A stretch of 21,356 nt of DNA, from positions 1 through 21,356 of IMG/VR virus record IMGVR_UViG_3300012920_000338, one strand, 5' to 3'. The position numbers and the translations under genes are program-made. The notes under the pieces are model-generated. The model was not told the origin of the DNA. It worked only from the letters and a program-made list of their open reading frames with translations, and made no database searches. Source of the stretch: a virus. This document shows, one piece after another, positions 100-11,883 of the stretch. How positions within the stretch are numbered: position 1 is the first letter of the stretch; each line of letters opens with the position of its first letter.

Positions 100-1089
100 T
101 TATCCTCTGTGATATTTAGGTGCTTTCTTTCTTTTACCTAATCTAATTCCTGCATCAGTTTGTACAGCGCCTCGCATTTCTTGTACATCTTCATTTAATC
201 CAACCATATGGCCAATTGATGCCCAAATTTCTTCTCTAGTCATTGTATCACCATAAGCTAAATCTTTTGGGTATGTTTTAACTTCAAGACTAGCCTTTTC
301 CCAAAGATCCTCACGAACTTCCTCTTTACTTCGTCTCTTTTTCATCATATCAAGTTTCATACCTTTAAATACTTTTTGTAAATAATCATTTAATTTTTCA
401 TTAAACTTCATATTTTTCTTTTCATTCTTTGATATAAATGCAAAGTAATAATCGCCATCTCTAACAGGATAACTTAAAGAATTCCATGCTTTTGGTCTAG
501 CTGAATTCTTAGGGCTATAATCTTGTTTCATTTCAGCCCTAGCCTTATCTAAGTCGCCAAAAAACTCTTCTGGTTTACTAAAGAATTTGAATTGTTTATC
601 AATTTCCTTATCAGATAAATTTTTTGAATATGCCTCAACAATTTCTGGTTGTAAATCTTCTTTCATATTAAGTATAGTAGATTCATTTGCGTACTGAAGT
701 GCCTTTTTAACCTCTGGGTGATTAGAAAGACCTCTCTTCATTTTCTCTATACCTTTTACTGCAAAGGTCATGGCTCCGCCATGGTCCAGTGCAAATTCTA
801 CAGCCTTACGGACTGTTTTATCTTTTTTAGCGCCAGGGTTTTTTCTCATGTATACACTGATTTCTTGACCAGTCAACTTAGACCCAGACATTTTACTAAG
901 TTTTTCTCTAAAATCTTTTAATTTCATTTTATCCTCTTTTAAATTACCTCCGGCATCTGCAAAAGCCGCAATTGCCATTTTTCTTCTTTGATCCATACTT
1001 TTACCTTGGAACTGTGGCGCGTCTGATTTCATAAAATCTTTTATCCATGCCCCAATACCATCACTTACTTTTAACTTTTCGTTTATCAT
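100..1089 (-). CDS. Conserved marine-phage protein with an N-terminal SDAPQF-type module
   Basis: A 329-residue soluble, lysine-rich protein. Residues about 9-47 hold the block DGIGAWIKDFMKSDAPQF followed by GKS...RRKMAIAAF and a glycine pair. I recall this block from many uncharacterised proteins of T4-like cyanophages and pelagiphages, but its function is not known to me. The rest is mixed helical sequence with many charged residues and no recognisable catalytic motif. No signal peptide or membrane segment is seen. Its ATG overlaps the stop of the upstream nucleotidyltransferase gene as ATGA, so the two are probably translationally coupled. Unlike its neighbours it lacks the F-x-x-[FY] leader. 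Its place in a late operon suggests a virion or assembly role (inference). Confidence 0.8.
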   Translation of the reverse strand: MINEKLKVSDGIGAWIKDFMKSDAPQFQGKSMDQRRKMAIAAFADAGGNLKEDKMKLKDFREKLSKMSGSKLTGQEISVYMRKNPGAKKDKTVRKAVEFALDHGGAMTFAVKGIEKMKRGLSNHPEVKKALQYANESTILNMKEDLQPEIVEAYSKNLSDKEIDKQFKFFSKPEEFFGDLDKARAEMKQDYSPKNSARPKAWNSLSYPVRDGDYYFAFISKNEKKNMKFNEKLNDYLQKVFKGMKLDMMKKRRSKEEVREDLWEKASLEVKTYPKDLAYGDTMTREEIWASIGHMVGLNEDVQEMRGAVQTDAGIRLGKRKKAPKYHRG

Positions 1090-2441
1090 ACTTTAGCTGC
1101 TAGGTCCTTATCAGCCTTACCCCATGTTCCAGGCGATTTAGTAACAAAAGAATTAACTCTTGCAAGTCCCCATTGTGTTGGTGTAGTACCTGGTCTATGA
1201 CCAGTTCTCCAGGCTGCAACTCCCCTATCAAAAACCTTCTTTAAAATAGCATAAGGCATACCTGACTTATCAGCCTTTTTCTGTAATGCCGCTTTACTAT
1301 TTTGTTCTGTAACTGCAAAGTCTTCAAAACTTAATGTATTTTCACCAAACATTTGTTTATATTTCTTAGTATGTACTGAAGGTTTAGTTTTTGCAGTTGC
1401 ATCTCCAGGGGCAGGTTTATAGGCCGCTGGATTATCATCGCTCATTTTGCCATGTTTCTTAAAGTGTGCCGCTCTTTTATTCTTAGTAGATTTAGTTTTT
1501 ATACCTTTATAATAACCTACTGGTTGTGATCCTTTTCTATCTCCGACATCTGGATCCTCTTTACCTTTTTTATTTTCTGTTTGTCCTGGAGTCATTTTCT
1601 TTGTATGTTTGGCGTAATCGGCACCTATCTCATACACCTCATCTAACCAAACTTTTTTGTTTCCTCTGGCTAATGATACTGTAAGATAATTTGACCCTTT
1701 TGTAATAATAGTTCCAATCTCACCTGATTCTATAATTTCCACTTCGTCACCGACATTAAATATATTACCTTGTACAAACTTTTCCCTTGTCTCCGATAAT
1801 GTTGGTAGTTCTATGTGTTTACGAAATGATTCTTTTTTAAGACCCATACCTTTACGGATTGCATAGTATAGTACTTGTATACCTTCGCCTGGTACTTCTA
1901 ATGAGTTATCTGCAAAACCTTGTAAATCACCTGCGGCGACAAAGGCTCTTAATTTAGATGCAGACATACCAGTTACGCCTTCTGCGTCTGGGTCCCTATG
2001 TCCTGCAGATATTACTCTAATTCTATCTTCAAATTGATAGAATCCGTGTCTGTTCTTCATACCATTATACTTGTTTAGTAGTATATCAAATTCTTTTATT
2101 CTATCTGATCCTGCAACCATAGTAACTTTAGTAAATCCTTGGTCATACAGTTTTACTGCAATATCGAGTACTGTTCTGACATCTGGATCTGCCATAATAT
2201 TACGCGCATGTTTTGGAAACATTTTACGCATAAATTTAATTTTTTGTTTAAATGGTAAAGGATTCTTTTTTGGATCCTGAGATTTAGATGCATATATTCT
2301 ATATGTACCACCTCGTGATACTTTTTTCAAAGTTTCAAATAGTTTTTCGTGCCCCTCTGTGGGCGGATTGAATCTACCAAAAACGAATGTTACTTCTTTT
2401 GATGATTCGACGATGTAATCGCTGAATGATTTAATTGACAT
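1086..2441 (-). CDS. HxGH-type nucleotidyltransferase fused to a KOW/SH3-like segment and a DUF5824-like C-terminus
   Basis: A 451-residue multidomain protein. Residues 17-200 look like a cytidylyl/adenylyltransferase (Rossmann) domain: FGRFNPPTEGH at 21-31 supplies the nucleotide-binding [HT]xGH motif, and GMSASKLRAF at 158-167 matches the S-x-S-x-L/R signature after the last strand. Residues 225-269 form a KOW/SH3-like barrel (NVGDEVEIIESGEIGTIITK). A basic linker with YYKGIK, RAAHFKKH and AYKPAPGD follows. Residues 383-450 (GMPYAILKKVFDRGVAAWRT, PTQWGLARVNSF) resemble the DUF5824 module of marine phages. The N-terminus MSIKSFSDYIVES looks like a T4 capsid-targeting leader ending I-V-E at residue 12. 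Similar cleavage-like sites occur internally at L-S-E (217) and V-T-E (379). Substrate unknown. SD GAGGA lies upstream of the ATG. Confidence 0.85.
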   Translation of the reverse strand: MSIKSFSDYIVESSKEVTFVFGRFNPPTEGHEKLFETLKKVSRGGTYRIYASKSQDPKKNPLPFKQKIKFMRKMFPKHARNIMADPDVRTVLDIAVKLYDQGFTKVTMVAGSDRIKEFDILLNKYNGMKNRHGFYQFEDRIRVISAGHRDPDAEGVTGMSASKLRAFVAAGDLQGFADNSLEVPGEGIQVLYYAIRKGMGLKKESFRKHIELPTLSETREKFVQGNIFNVGDEVEIIESGEIGTIITKGSNYLTVSLARGNKKVWLDEVYEIGADYAKHTKKMTPGQTENKKGKEDPDVGDRKGSQPVGYYKGIKTKSTKNKRAAHFKKHGKMSDDNPAAYKPAPGDATAKTKPSVHTKKYKQMFGENTLSFEDFAVTEQNSKAALQKKADKSGMPYAILKKVFDRGVAAWRTGHRPGTTPTQWGLARVNSFVTKSPGTWGKADKDLAAKV

Positions 2442-2460: not shown

Positions 2461-3702
2461 TTAGCTGGGGTTATCCCAACCTTTTATTATATCTTTGCTG
2501 AAATTATTAGTAGAGAATTCTAATCTGTCTACTAACTTAACAGCACCACCTTCCATTCGGTCTATGGCAACAAATCCCTCGGGATTGGTTACTCTAAACC
2601 CGGATTTAGTTTTTACAAAAGTTCCTATAGAACTTAACTTGTTTAGTTTATTTATAAGAATTAATTTCGCATCCACTACAAAATTCTGCAAATCAAAGAT
2701 ATTTTTTAAGTTTTTTATATTATTCTTACTAAAAAACGATAATAATTCATCTCTTTTAGTTATTTGCACATCTTTTCCTTTCTGTGATTTTCTTTTATCT
2801 ATTTCTTTTGCATATCTATCATTTACAAACATAACCAGACCAGTCGCATGTTTTTTAGTATCTGTTATTCTTTGTCCTTCTCTAACTACTCTATTATTGT
2901 AAATATTAATGACTAGATTTAATTCTTTATTTTGTTCTATTTCTTTTAAAACATTACTTTGTATTTTTTTAAATATCTTACCGGCATTCGATAAGTTACT
3001 ATTTAACTCTTTGGTTTCTGCAGAAGTTAATGTTGCAGTTCCAGATAGGTCTGGTAGTGTCGCATCGACCATCCAAACATCTTTTGTTCTTTTAAGTTTA
3101 GGGACTATTTCTCGGCCAAATTCAGCCCTCATAGTTTCAAATGTTGCACCACTATATGAAGTGTGCCAAACGATACCAACTTTTGCTGAAGTTATTTCTT
3201 TGGCCATTGCGTTATCGGTTGGTATTGCGTATACAATAGTATTCGGATGGAAAGTAATATGAGAAACTCCATTTATTTTTTCTTTCTTTAGGTCTGATTT
3301 ATCAAACATAAAGTCACCTTGAATTACTCCTTTAATACCTACACCTTTTAAACTATCAAATGCAAGTTTTAATTTTTTAGATAAATCGCCAGATGTATCA
3401 GCATCTATATCAGCATGTGATTTATATATTTTAGGATTCTTTGCAAATATACCTTTCTTTGCAACAAAGAATTCTCCAGTTTCTGGATCCTCTCCCGCAA
3501 ATACAGCGGGGGCACCGTCCCATTTGACTGTAACATCTACAGGTGCTTTTGTGTTACCAGACAACATATCCCTCAGTGATCTAAGCGCGAGGATAGCTTG
3601 GCGTGCCCCCTTAACTCCACCATCAATAATCAAGTCCTCAATATGAGTCATATGAGTATTCTTCGATTCCGTTAATGGTATGTATGAATTAAATCTTCTC
3701 AT
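2461..3702 (-). CDS. Ligase-like nucleotidyltransferase (DUF6267-like)
   Basis: A 413-residue protein. The order of motifs fits the covalent nucleotidyltransferase (DNA/RNA ligase, capping enzyme) fold: motif I K60-W-D-G-A-P-A with the candidate nucleotidylated lysine, a motif III-like IQGDFMF at 127-133, motif IV EGFVAI at 375-380 and a motif V-like AVKLVDR at 387-393. A long helical insertion separates III from IV. I recall the same framework from cyanophage proteins called DUF6267. Whether it joins nucleic acid ends or modifies another target is unknown. The N-terminus MRRFNSYIPLTES fits the capsid-targeting pattern, with L-T-E at 10-12. Its start shares ATGA with the stop of the 413-residue gene's downstream-coordinate neighbour boundary pattern: its ATG at 3702 overlaps the stop of the ParB-like gene at 3699. 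Confidence 0.78.
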   Translation of the reverse strand: MRRFNSYIPLTESKNTHMTHIEDLIIDGGVKGARQAILALRSLRDMLSGNTKAPVDVTVKWDGAPAVFAGEDPETGEFFVAKKGIFAKNPKIYKSHADIDADTSGDLSKKLKLAFDSLKGVGIKGVIQGDFMFDKSDLKKEKINGVSHITFHPNTIVYAIPTDNAMAKEITSAKVGIVWHTSYSGATFETMRAEFGREIVPKLKRTKDVWMVDATLPDLSGTATLTSAETKELNSNLSNAGKIFKKIQSNVLKEIEQNKELNLVINIYNNRVVREGQRITDTKKHATGLVMFVNDRYAKEIDKRKSQKGKDVQITKRDELLSFFSKNNIKNLKNIFDLQNFVVDAKLILINKLNKLSSIGTFVKTKSGFRVTNPEGFVAIDRMEGGAVKLVDRLEFSTNNFSKDIIKGWDNPS

Positions 3703-4424
3703 TTGTTTCTTATATTCCCTATTGCATCTGTATATGCAAGTGTAAGTGGTAATAATTCTTTTATTGGTAAATCTATTTTTAAACAGTTAACCTTAATCTT
3801 TGGATCAATTAAAACAGTTGTTAAAAATCTATGATGACCATCAATAATTCTATTATCCTTTGATACTATAAAGTTATTAAACTTAGATGTTAAAAAGTTT
3901 TTAGATGACTTTACTCCATCTTTAGATACTTTTTTAATTGATTTATCAAAGTATATTTGTGCCTGTATAGGTTTTAAACTACCAACTGCAATTTTTTCAT
4001 TTGTTACTTTTACTACATCATCTTTTGCATCGCCGTCATTTTTTGCCAGACCACTTGTTGTCCACACTTTACCTGTCTTTTGGTCTAATCCGTTAGGGTA
4101 TGGATCGTCTGGAAGGTCATTCTTTGCAAAGGGTTTACTTATATCAATAGAACCTGACGATAGTCTTTTTTGTAATAACTTAACATCTCTGTTATCAATA
4201 ACAGGCATATCTTTTCTTTTTGCAAATCCTAACTTTGCACTTTTTTGTGCAAGTGTATAGTTTTTATCAAAGTCTGGTAACTCTTTATCTAAATCAAGGC
4301 CATTTTTACTAAACTTTTTCTCTGCAAAATCTCTTGCGGAATTTAGAGAAGTAGATAATACTTCTAACTTGCCGGCCTCTGCACCACCTTTTACTTCTTC
4401 AATATATTCTAAAAACTTTTTCAT
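3699..4424 (-). CDS. ParB/sulfiredoxin-fold protein
   Basis: A 241-residue protein. The C-terminal part (about 143-228) reads as a ParB-like N-terminal domain: EKIAVGSLKPIQAQIYFDKS is the first strand and helix, then NNFIVSKDNRIIDGHHRF carries the D-G-H-H-R box (195-199), then a strand and KIDLPIKELL. In this fold the GHHR box binds nucleotide or phosphate, and family members include nucleases, CTPases and kinase-like enzymes. The N-terminal 140 residues are lysine-rich and unrecognised. No helix-turn-helix follows, so a partition role is unlikely. The leader MKKFLEYIEEV aligns residue for residue with the T4 internal-protein leader, with I-E-E at 8-10. Both ends use ATGA overlaps with neighbouring late genes. 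Confidence 0.82.
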   Translation of the reverse strand: MKKFLEYIEEVKGGAEAGKLEVLSTSLNSARDFAEKKFSKNGLDLDKELPDFDKNYTLAQKSAKLGFAKRKDMPVIDNRDVKLLQKRLSSGSIDISKPFAKNDLPDDPYPNGLDQKTGKVWTTSGLAKNDGDAKDDVVKVTNEKIAVGSLKPIQAQIYFDKSIKKVSKDGVKSSKNFLTSKFNNFIVSKDNRIIDGHHRFLTTVLIDPKIKVNCLKIDLPIKELLPLTLAYTDAIGNIRNK

Positions 4425-4780
4425 TTTTCTTTATTTATTTCCTTAGTTTTCTTTTTAAGTTTCTCTAAATGTGCAGTCCAAATATCATATGCCTTTTGTA
4501 TATTGGCCTTTTTTTCTGGATCCTTAGTTCTTTTAATTGCCTCTTTTGCCCTTTGTTGCATTACAAGAGTCGCCTGTACCTTATGTGCGTGTGTTCTCTT
4601 CGCCTTATTTATTATACCTACACCTTTATTTGCAGTTTCGGCATCCTTAAAACCTAGACCATGTATAGTTCCTTTTGGATCCTCGTCTGTGTATAAGTCT
4701 GAATGACTTGAACTACCACGATGTTGTCCTTTTTGTCTAGGAGTTCTTTCCGCCTCTACAAATTCTTTAAAAGATATCAT
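4421..4780 (-). CDS. Small basic conserved marine-phage protein with capsid-leader-like N-terminus
   Basis: A 119-residue, strongly basic protein. After the leader-like MISFKEFVEAER comes RQKGQHRGSSSHSDLYTDED and PKGTIHGLGFKDAETANKGV, then a helical, lysine-rich C-terminus (AHKVQATLVMQQRAKEAIKR onward). I recall the block SDLYTDE.PKGTI.GL.F.DA from cyanophage hypothetical proteins; function unknown. Small size, basic charge and a T4 internal-protein-like leader make a DNA-associated internal head protein plausible (inference). The leader has F-K-E-F in the right place, but the cleavage-type triplet is F-V-E rather than [ILV]-x-E. ATGA overlaps couple it to both neighbours. Confidence 0.8.
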   Translation of the reverse strand: MISFKEFVEAERTPRQKGQHRGSSSHSDLYTDEDPKGTIHGLGFKDAETANKGVGIINKAKRTHAHKVQATLVMQQRAKEAIKRTKDPEKKANIQKAYDIWTAHLEKLKKKTKEINKEK

Positions 4781-6231
4781 TTGTAAATCGCCTTAAACTC
4801 AGGTGTCATTGTGGCTAAGAAGGACGGTGCGGCCCTAAAGTTTCCTTTATATCTTAACACAATATTACATAATGGTAATTTACCAATAACTAAATCAAAT
4901 CTTAATACGGCAGCTCCTGCACCTTGATCAAATGCCTGTGTCGCGCCTGGTGTAAATTTAAGGTCTATTTTACCTGATGAAAATAAATCATCTAATTTAC
5001 TTGTTACAGTATTAATATCTTTATATTCACCTTTTTCAACAACAACACCTTTTGATGGACCATAGTCACCTATACCTGTAACTAATGCAAAATCAAAATT
5101 TACTTTTTGTAAATCCTTTAGGTCTGCCTTAAATATCAATTGTACTAACTGATTGGCAATTAAGTTCTTTTGAGACATAATAATTTTTGCCATATCTTTA
5201 AATAGTGACCTTGATGTTTTAAGTTCAGCATTAATTAAACTATTAGGTACTCTTTGTATATACTGTTTCCAGTTTTTAGGTGTTGGCTTATCTTTCTTTA
5301 GGTCAGCCATCATTTCTTTATCTAATAGTTTTTTTCTTGCGGCAGTTTTAATAACCTTTGTATAAAATTCACCAGCCTTTAAATCAAGTTGTCTCATTAT
5401 TTTATCAAATTTCTTATCTGTAAATAATGTGGAAAATGATTTATTAATTAGTGTTGGATCCTCTTCTGATAATCTTTTTTTCTTTTTAAGAGATACACCT
5501 AAAAATTTATTACCTTTTTTTATTATAAAATCAGATGAATTAAAATCATTCATTCCATGTTTTGAAATTTTAAACTGTTTTACATCATCGTCCCATGATT
5601 GTCCTGTAAGATAAACTTTGTCTGCCCCACCATATCCAGCTGCGTGACACGCCAATGCCGCAGATACTGCTTGACATAAGTTAGGGTAGTCTCCAGTTAA
5701 TGCATCTACTTGTCCTTGTTTGTAACCTTTTACGGCACCAAGTCCAAGTTTTACATCATCTATAAGTTTATCCATTTCATCAGAGTTTTCAGGAGCCTTT
5801 AAACTTGATTTTAAACAAAGTGCGGCCGTCATTAACTCGTTCGGGTCGTCGCCTGCACCTGATCGTTTACCTAAAGGTCTACAATTAACATAGACATATC
5901 TGTCCATATCTTTATATTTAAATGCATAGTCTTTTCCTGTTCTTGCAGAGCTAACTTTTACTCTTTCTAGGTCTGGATGTTTTTCGATAACTTCAATTGC
6001 AAGACCTGCAAATTTACTTCTATCTTTATCCAACATGAGCTGAGATACGCCAAGTTTACTAGAATTAGTTTTTCCAGTCCTTGTGTCTAATGCGATTTCT
6101 GTATTGACTGATCCTATCTTATCGTCGATATCACCTAATAAACCTAACACAAATGCATTTTCATTTGCCTTGTTATAGTTTAATTTATCTAAATCTTCTT
6201 TAATAATAGAAAAGTATTTAAACCTATGCAT
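4777..6231 (-). CDS. First gene of the late operon; possible PD-(D/E)XK nuclease
   Basis: A 484-residue protein. A candidate nuclease core spans about 128-250: a helix with E132 (DPNELMTAAL), then D234 in NSSDFIIKK, then VSLKKKKR at 246-253, giving an E...D-x(14)-K layout like PD-(D/E)XK enzymes with S-L-K in the last strand. The C-terminus (IVLRYKGNFRAAPSFLATM) also resembles restriction-like nucleases. This call is tentative, since no database comparison was possible. The leader MHRFKYFSIIKED fits the capsid-targeting pattern, with I-K-E at 10-12. A late promoter octamer lies 18 bp upstream and a strong SD (GGAGGG) 6 nt before the ATG. It ends in an ATGA overlap with the next gene. Confidence 0.8.
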   Translation of the reverse strand: MHRFKYFSIIKEDLDKLNYNKANENAFVLGLLGDIDDKIGSVNTEIALDTRTGKTNSSKLGVSQLMLDKDRSKFAGLAIEVIEKHPDLERVKVSSARTGKDYAFKYKDMDRYVYVNCRPLGKRSGAGDDPNELMTAALCLKSSLKAPENSDEMDKLIDDVKLGLGAVKGYKQGQVDALTGDYPNLCQAVSAALACHAAGYGGADKVYLTGQSWDDDVKQFKISKHGMNDFNSSDFIIKKGNKFLGVSLKKKKRLSEEDPTLINKSFSTLFTDKKFDKIMRQLDLKAGEFYTKVIKTAARKKLLDKEMMADLKKDKPTPKNWKQYIQRVPNSLINAELKTSRSLFKDMAKIIMSQKNLIANQLVQLIFKADLKDLQKVNFDFALVTGIGDYGPSKGVVVEKGEYKDINTVTSKLDDLFSSGKIDLKFTPGATQAFDQGAGAAVLRFDLVIGKLPLCNIVLRYKGNFRAAPSFLATMTPEFKAIYK

Positions 6232-11469: not shown

Positions 11470-11883
11470 TTAAATTTTTTGTTCACACACTCTTTTTCTT
11501 AAATCACTAGTTGAAAATCTATGGTCTCGTTTATTAAAGTAAAACTCAATATCTCTTTGTTTACATAAATCTCTACCAGTGAAGTCCTTATCTCGATACT
11601 CGACTCCCATAATCTTGACATCAATATCATACATAGAAAGAATATCCAATAATTCTTCTTCGGTATTATAAACTAATATTTCATCTACATATTTAATTGA
11701 GGCCAATTGTGCCTGCCTTTCTACTATGTTTTGGACAGGTTTATTTTTCTCTGGTCTGTCAACAGAAGGATCATTCTGTAGTGCACATATTAGATAATCG
11801 CACACACTTTTTGCCTCTCTTAACATTGCACAATGACCTGCGTGAAGTAAGTCAAAGGTAGATGCTGTAATACCAATTTTCAT
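11470..11883 (-). CDS. Cytidylyltransferase-like protein (TagD/HldE-C type)
   Basis: A 137-residue single-domain nucleotidyltransferase. TASTFDLLHAGH (6-17) carries the HxGH nucleotide-binding motif, and HRFSTSDLRKRV (121-132) the S-T-S-x-L signature. Length and motifs match glycerol-3-phosphate cytidylyltransferase and the ADP-heptose adenylyltransferase domain, which activate small phosphorylated sugars or polyols. GVEYRDKDFTG at 93-103 is like the HldE/RfaE subgroup. The substrate cannot be read from the sequence. It starts in a TAATG overlap with the GIY-YIG-like gene. Nearby epimerase and UDP-glucose dehydrogenase genes suggest a shared link to sugar nucleotides. Confidence 0.88.
   Translation of the reverse strand: MKIGITASTFDLLHAGHCAMLREAKSVCDYLICALQNDPSVDRPEKNKPVQNIVERQAQLASIKYVDEILVYNTEEELLDILSMYDIDVKIMGVEYRDKDFTGRDLCKQRDIEFYFNKRDHRFSTSDLRKRVCEQKI

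Follow-up and report, generated by a model that had tools for sequence, protein, structure and literature searches.

The stretch of DNA analysed here, a fragment of 21,356 nucleotides referred to as the window, belongs to a marine T4-like, Kyanoviridae-like phage and encodes a 451-residue protein made up of several recognizable modules (Table 1). From the N to the C terminus, the protein comprises a leader, a nucleotidyltransferase domain, a small barrel, a low-confidence stretch, the N-terminal half of DUF5824 (N-half), a second, internal leader, and a C-terminal module (C-module).

Table 1. Features of the 451-residue protein and their positions in the window.
Feature	Residues	Window position	Strand	Basis or remark
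451-residue open reading frame		1086-2441	minus	ORF call and translation
N-terminal capsid-targeting-like leader, MSIKSFSDYIVE	1-12	2406..2441	minus	predicted cut after E12
Nucleotidyltransferase domain	~13-200	1842..2405	minus	GRFNPPTEGH and GMSASKLR stretches
LSE, proposed second site	215-217	1791..1799	minus	probably no cleavage site
Small beta barrel	~218-272	1626..1790	minus	five strands in AlphaFold model, pLDDT 77-89
DUF5824 N-half module	~296-366	1344..1556	minus	Pfam PF19141
Internal leader LSFEDFAVTE	370-379	1305..1334	minus	predicted cut after E379
C-module	380-451	1089..1304	minus	separate gene in many relatives

The nucleotidyltransferase domain matches the cytidyltransferase profiles phrog_3041/395 of PHROG and has a PPAT/NMNAT fold, aligning to E. 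coli PPAT over 152 residues with a Z-score of 13.8 and an rmsd of 2.9. The Pfam family PF01467 (CTP_transf_like) stays below its curated cut-off in the window protein (18.9 vs 21); three relatives pass that cut-off (L082, 26.5; L083, 27.4; L153, 21.1) and a fourth misses it (L084, 20.4). A second, separate cytidylyltransferase-like gene lies at 11470-11883 (PF01467, 53 bits). The first-pass annotation had called the barrel "KOW-like", a name that a Pfam scan of the window protein, which returned no KOW match for the barrel, did not bear out. The three segments in which it placed cleavage sites are indeed present, namely IVE at residues 10-12, SFRKHIELPTLSET at 205-218 and LSFEDFAVTEQ at 370-380. 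All three proposed positions lie in or adjoin low-confidence stretches of the AlphaFold model, in which the pLDDT averages 49 at residues 1-10 and drops below 50 at 207-214 and 369-374.

The leader at the N terminus has an aromatic residue at each of the two targeting positions and ends in [IL]xE. Its targeting and processing residues at 6, 9, 10 and 12 share the spacing of residues 4, 7, 8 and 10 of T4 IPIII, which serve targeting and processing according to passages of a T4 head assembly review (PMC9026906). The corresponding pattern, [FYL]xx[FYLIV][ILVM]xE within the first 25 residues, is present in 63/63 rows, made up of the window protein and 62 distinct IMG/VR homologues among the matches listed.

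The next four genes on the minus strand (2461-3702, 3699-4424, 4421-4780 and 4777-6231) likewise have leader-like starts, in order MRRFNSYIPLTES, MKKFLEYIEE, MISFKEFVEAE and MHRFKYFSIIKED. A leader pattern scores in 4 of the 28 genes of the window, all of them within this five-gene block; the gene at 4421-4780 has Phe at P3 and does not score. From the sequences of these starts, 1086-2441 and the next four genes probably form a block of head-internal proteins. The profile phrog_455 (764 positions) matches the 413-residue neighbour at 2461-3702 (DUF6267) at positions 22-342 and the nucleotidyltransferase at 420-682; since it covers both neighbours, 2461-3702 and 1086-2441 may be fused in some phages. 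On the other side, 100-1089 encodes a 329-residue protein whose WIxDF..DAPQF and GLSxH modules both recur in other proteins of the relatives' loci, and that contains an internal IVE-A stretch.

Pfam PF19141 (DUF5824) matches residues 309-446 with 56.4 bits against a cut-off of 25. The first-pass annotation had placed its proposed sites between domains; at the internal site the junction is real, but the DUF5824 match, beginning at 309, spans it. On profile evidence, DUF5824 is best read as two separable modules merged by Pfam, which accounts for a single match running across the site. More specifically, Pfam treats DUF5824 as one family, whereas it occupies two genes in C48C1 and other split relatives. 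The nucleotidyltransferase gene of C48C1 matches profile positions 1-55 (21.6 bits, under the cut-off of 25), and the gene that follows it, encoding a 90-residue protein starting MITFKKYLEE, covers positions 63-125. Stand-alone copies of the C-module match the DUF5824 profile only from position 59-66 onward, and phrog_28338 (89 profile positions), itself a short family, aligns with residues 382-447 of the C-module at an E-value of 9.3e-05.

The C-module is a very basic 7.8-kDa unit (pI 10.6; 14 K+R vs 4 D+E) with three main helices in the model. A PDB structure search with it found 12 weak matches, all with E above 0.001. In a viral structure library, two matches reached E <= 0.001, and one of these two bears the label DUF5824; many of the viral matches are nameless, and weak ones carry the labels XkdF and ChaB (one each), a model-based hint that the C-module may have a wider role in head assembly. 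Two C-module copies, one of them divergent, are found inside single proteins at L147:3831-5948 and L124:3876-6143.

To place the fused arrangement in context, 247 loci were examined, including the window itself (L001). The viral-contig profile searches supplied the best 80 matches each, so all counts given here are of a sample. Among the matches listed, 135 ORFs contain a whole nucleotidyltransferase domain: the C-module is fused to it in 85, forms a separate gene directly downstream in 35 (with a 4-nt overlap in 21 of these), lies in another adjacent ORF in 4 and is absent next door in 11. The separate genes usually open with a T4-type capsid-targeting leader, for example MIKFKAYIAE or MISFKSYIAE. 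The first-pass annotation had read the window protein as separate leader-bearing proteins fused; for the C-terminal module this is well supported by the 35 split cases, in which related phages encode it as a leader-bearing gene of its own. In 7 of them (L167, L150, L137, L139, L129, L101 and L146), the upstream ORF stops where the internal leader of the window begins, ending no more than a few residues from a ..FKQMYGE/MFGD motif, and the next gene opens with MIKFKAYIAE, MKFKEYIEE, MLTFKSYLNE or similar. The window reads through the same junction (..KQMFGENT-LSFEDFAVTE). The upstream ORF ends otherwise in the remaining 28 (e.g. L164, L149, L121 and C48C1).

Fused isolates include the Pelagibacter phage HTVC008M, where the protein is gp130, and the Methylophilales phage Melnitz, where its locus is MelnitzEXVC044M_18; neither matches a narrower N-terminal leader pattern, and an obvious N-terminal leader is absent from HTVC008M. 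On a tree of the nucleotidyltransferase domain with 93 rows, the fused label requires 7 changes, 6 of them forced by well-supported branches, so joining or splitting has occurred repeatedly. Among the nine fused rows outside the clade of the window, seven keep [ILV]xE at the internal site. As a whole, it is strongly supported that the window protein is a fusion of two neighbouring leader-bearing head genes, and we infer that fusion, not splitting, was the direction of change.

The window protein contains 8 [ILV]xE triplets, compared with a mean of 4.0 in shuffled sequences (P = 0.03). A bare triplet of this kind is weak evidence, and the weight rests on position and conservation. At the internal site, [ILVM]xE is found in 61 of 65 rows among the matches listed (V 24, I 20, L 11, M 6), the exceptions being L032 (KVE), L033 (KIE), L034 (TVE) and L051 (QVE); L082, which encodes its C-module in a gene of its own, was for that reason left out of these rows. 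The linker around the site varies in length and sequence while the motif stays.

We further scored 141 C-modules for [ILV]xE in the 14 residues preceding the module. These were obtained from 196 distinct occurrences by dropping near-identical copies and HMM matches beginning after position 4, and they divide into 29 podophage-like variants, 57 nucleotidyltransferase fusions, 13 fusions to other proteins, 41 stand-alone genes and 1 open-ended ORF. Among the matches listed, the motif precedes the module in 39/41 stand-alone genes, in 46/57 nucleotidyltransferase fusions (52/57 with Met allowed, though 29/57 only with strict [IL]xE), in 13/13 fusions to other proteins and in 0/29 podophage-like copies. 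Random 14-residue windows from the same proteins reached a mean of 10.8/57 (maximum 22 in 500 draws) for the nucleotidyltransferase fusions and 2.7/13 (maximum 7) for the other-protein fusions. The nucleotidyltransferase fusions without [ILVM]xE are L158, L032, L034, L051 and L120. The 13 other-protein fusions represent 11 proteins, two of them with two copies each; L122, L157 and some others in this class may have their true start further downstream and hence be stand-alone genes. The podophage-like class was defined by the core of the C-module itself (RGQG), and L170, which has a podophage-like start and no RGQG in the stretch read, was counted against the stand-alone group.

These data bear on whether the internal leader is cut or is a remnant. 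In the latter case, joining of the two genes would have left the leader in place as a linker that is not cut, and residues 13-451 would make up the mature protein. Several observations fit such a history: P3 in the window is Val (V-T-E), many different residues stand at P1' (among them G, Q, A, D, N and K), the motif is missing in the 4 exceptions among the 65 close rows, and two fused rows outside the clade of the window, L158 (FNE) and L120 (QTE), lack [ILV]xE. Nevertheless, we consider it rather unlikely, given that the motif is retained at the internal site despite changes in the length and sequence of the linker, and given its distribution between other-protein fusions and podophage-like copies. 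Val at P3 departs from the L/I-x-E specificity reported for T4 gp21 in the relevant passages of the head assembly review (PMC9026906). It also occurs in 9/64 N-terminal leaders of the window's clade among the matches listed, compared with 24/61 at the internal site, so Val lowers the expectation of cutting at 379 without removing it, and the protease of this clade may tolerate it. A cut after E379 by the prohead protease is predicted as likely.

The protease gp21 (searched as PF03420) and the capsid protein gp23 (PF07068) were sought in 12 records around relatives. Both are present in the same ten records, giving 10/12 for each; the podophage HTVC202P, a whole 32-kb record, and the partial contig G005 matched neither. 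At the gp23 position aligned with T4 Glu65, [LIM]xE is found in 10/10 relatives. Within the podophage-like class, gp21 was found in 0/12 longer contigs, which are possibly fragments, and in 0/13 sampled records overall (the 12 contigs and HTVC202P). The window, a 21-kb fragment, gave no gp21 match.

The first-pass annotation had proposed three sites, and with them the release of the nucleotidyltransferase, of residues 218-379 and of residues 380-451. The conservation described above upholds the sites in the N-terminal and internal leaders, and on sequence grounds release of residues 380-451 is likely, but the site at 215-217 and separate release of 218-379 do not hold up. Among the 64 rows scored at this position (of 66), [ILV]SE is found in 54, and Glu217 is replaced in 10 (VSQ 8, VSN 1, VSK 1; among the matches listed). 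Ser is present in 64/64 and the flanks are conserved (HIELPxVSETREEY), which suits structure rather than a protease site, and the substitutions and conserved flanks led us to reject LSE as a cut site.

Furthermore, nucleotidyltransferase and barrel form one protein in GC190 of phage S-SM1, in which a Pro aligns with E217 and LFE occurs a few residues upstream. The portion of Sullivan et al. 2010 that covers this protein (PMC3037559) reports the T4-GC190 putative citidylyltransferase as detected in S-SM1 virions. The gene, SSM1_190 (annotated GC 190), starts MKKFSAFLNEAE, with aromatics and processing residues at 4, 7, 8 and 10, as given for IPIII in the review passages cited above, and its product shares 40% identity with the window protein across 314 aligned columns that cover the nucleotidyltransferase and the barrel. 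A full polyprotein with cuts after 12, 217 and 379 would yield three products; the prevalence of [ILV]SE and the pLDDT below 50 at residues 207-214, between nucleotidyltransferase and barrel, are compatible with it, yet against the replacements of Glu217, the invariant Ser with its structural flanks and the Pro of the virion-detected homologue it appears very unlikely.

A separate C-module could in principle also arise from an internal translation start. Met heads the internal leader in the fused relatives L069 (MKSFSEYNETLDE), L153 (MQSFSEYEALSE), L073 and L079, and an internal start is annotated in gene 21 of T4. The window encodes residue 370 by TTA, and no in-frame ATG, GTG or TTG codon occurs at residues 365-383. 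We therefore rejected internal initiation in the window on the codon at residue 370, and the explanation is exceedingly improbable.

We also asked whether [ILV]xE precedes every head module, scoring the 15 residues before each of seven further modules against controls. The motif precedes YQGKKV in 24/29 N-terminal and 6/10 internal cases (vs 5/10 in the nearest control), CWxGY in 15/25 internal (vs 6/25) and 2/7 N-terminal cases, GLSxH in 12/27 internal (vs 2/27) and 2/15 N-terminal cases, and LKxST in 3/3 internal and 1/1 N-terminal cases. No enrichment was found for the DUF5824 N-half (47/88 vs 36-57/88 in controls), WIxDF (2/5 internal, 1/10 N-terminal) or DNDG (2/14). With three of the seven modules not enriched, the rule is not general and was rejected. 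In Melnitz, the ORF at L083:4001-5953 runs beyond the C-module into a YQGKxV module, which C48C1 and HTVC008M encode as a gene of its own; a leader-like stretch there, VSFKEHLDCG, is without x-E.

Taken together, the window protein is quite probably a two-product precursor, in which two head genes have been fused and a gp21-type protease cuts after E12 and E379. The upstream gene would have contributed the leader, the nucleotidyltransferase, the barrel and the DUF5824 N-half, and the downstream gene a leader and the C-module, as in the split relatives, so that in-frame joining placed a second leader inside the protein. The N-terminal leader would carry the precursor into the prohead core. Cutting by the gp21-type prohead protease at both sites would then leave two products inside the head: a 41-kDa nucleotidyltransferase-barrel-DUF5824N protein and, in a 1:1 ratio, the 8-kDa very basic helical C-module. 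For this phage, we infer targeting, cutting and release.

A broader proposal, which we put forward tentatively and regard as possible rather than probable, is that T4-like marine phages make internal head proteins as polyproteins by means of an in-line unit of leader plus cut. Genes for head modules would join repeatedly, and cutting of the retained leader by gp21 would make joining tolerated and fix the doses of both products in the capsid, comparable to retroviral Gag. If true, the T4 targeting-and-processing system would extend from single proteins to polyproteins, the changing composition of head proteins in marine T4-like phages, in genes as in domains, would be accounted for, and a predicted protease site would divide the Pfam family DUF5824 in two. 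A literature search found no paper on DUF5824, and among the matches listed no title or abstract start concerned polyproteins in T4-like heads. Within those literature matches, the mechanism is that of T4, and what is new is the leader inside the protein, between two conserved modules.

Comparison with known systems places the window protein close to the internal proteins of T4. T4-GC190 of S-SM1 shares the nucleotidyltransferase, the barrel and a leader (MKKFSAFLNE), but with 387 residues it is without the DUF5824 halves, unlike the window protein. The T4 gp22/core proteins and the head proteins of phiKZ and SPN3US, whose propeptides are cut several times, resemble the proposed precursor in having several protease sites; in those systems the pieces are mostly removed, whereas both pieces of the window protein would be conserved products. 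T4 IPI-III and Alt, whose N-terminal propeptides are capsid-targeting sequences processed by gp21, share with it the N-terminal leader, the targeting aromatics and hydrophobic-x-E, with gp21 present in the relatives of the window; for Alt, the same review passages (PMC9026906) give a further cut at the C-terminus. In contrast to the T4 internal proteins, which have one N-terminal leader, the window protein carries a second leader inside, between conserved modules.
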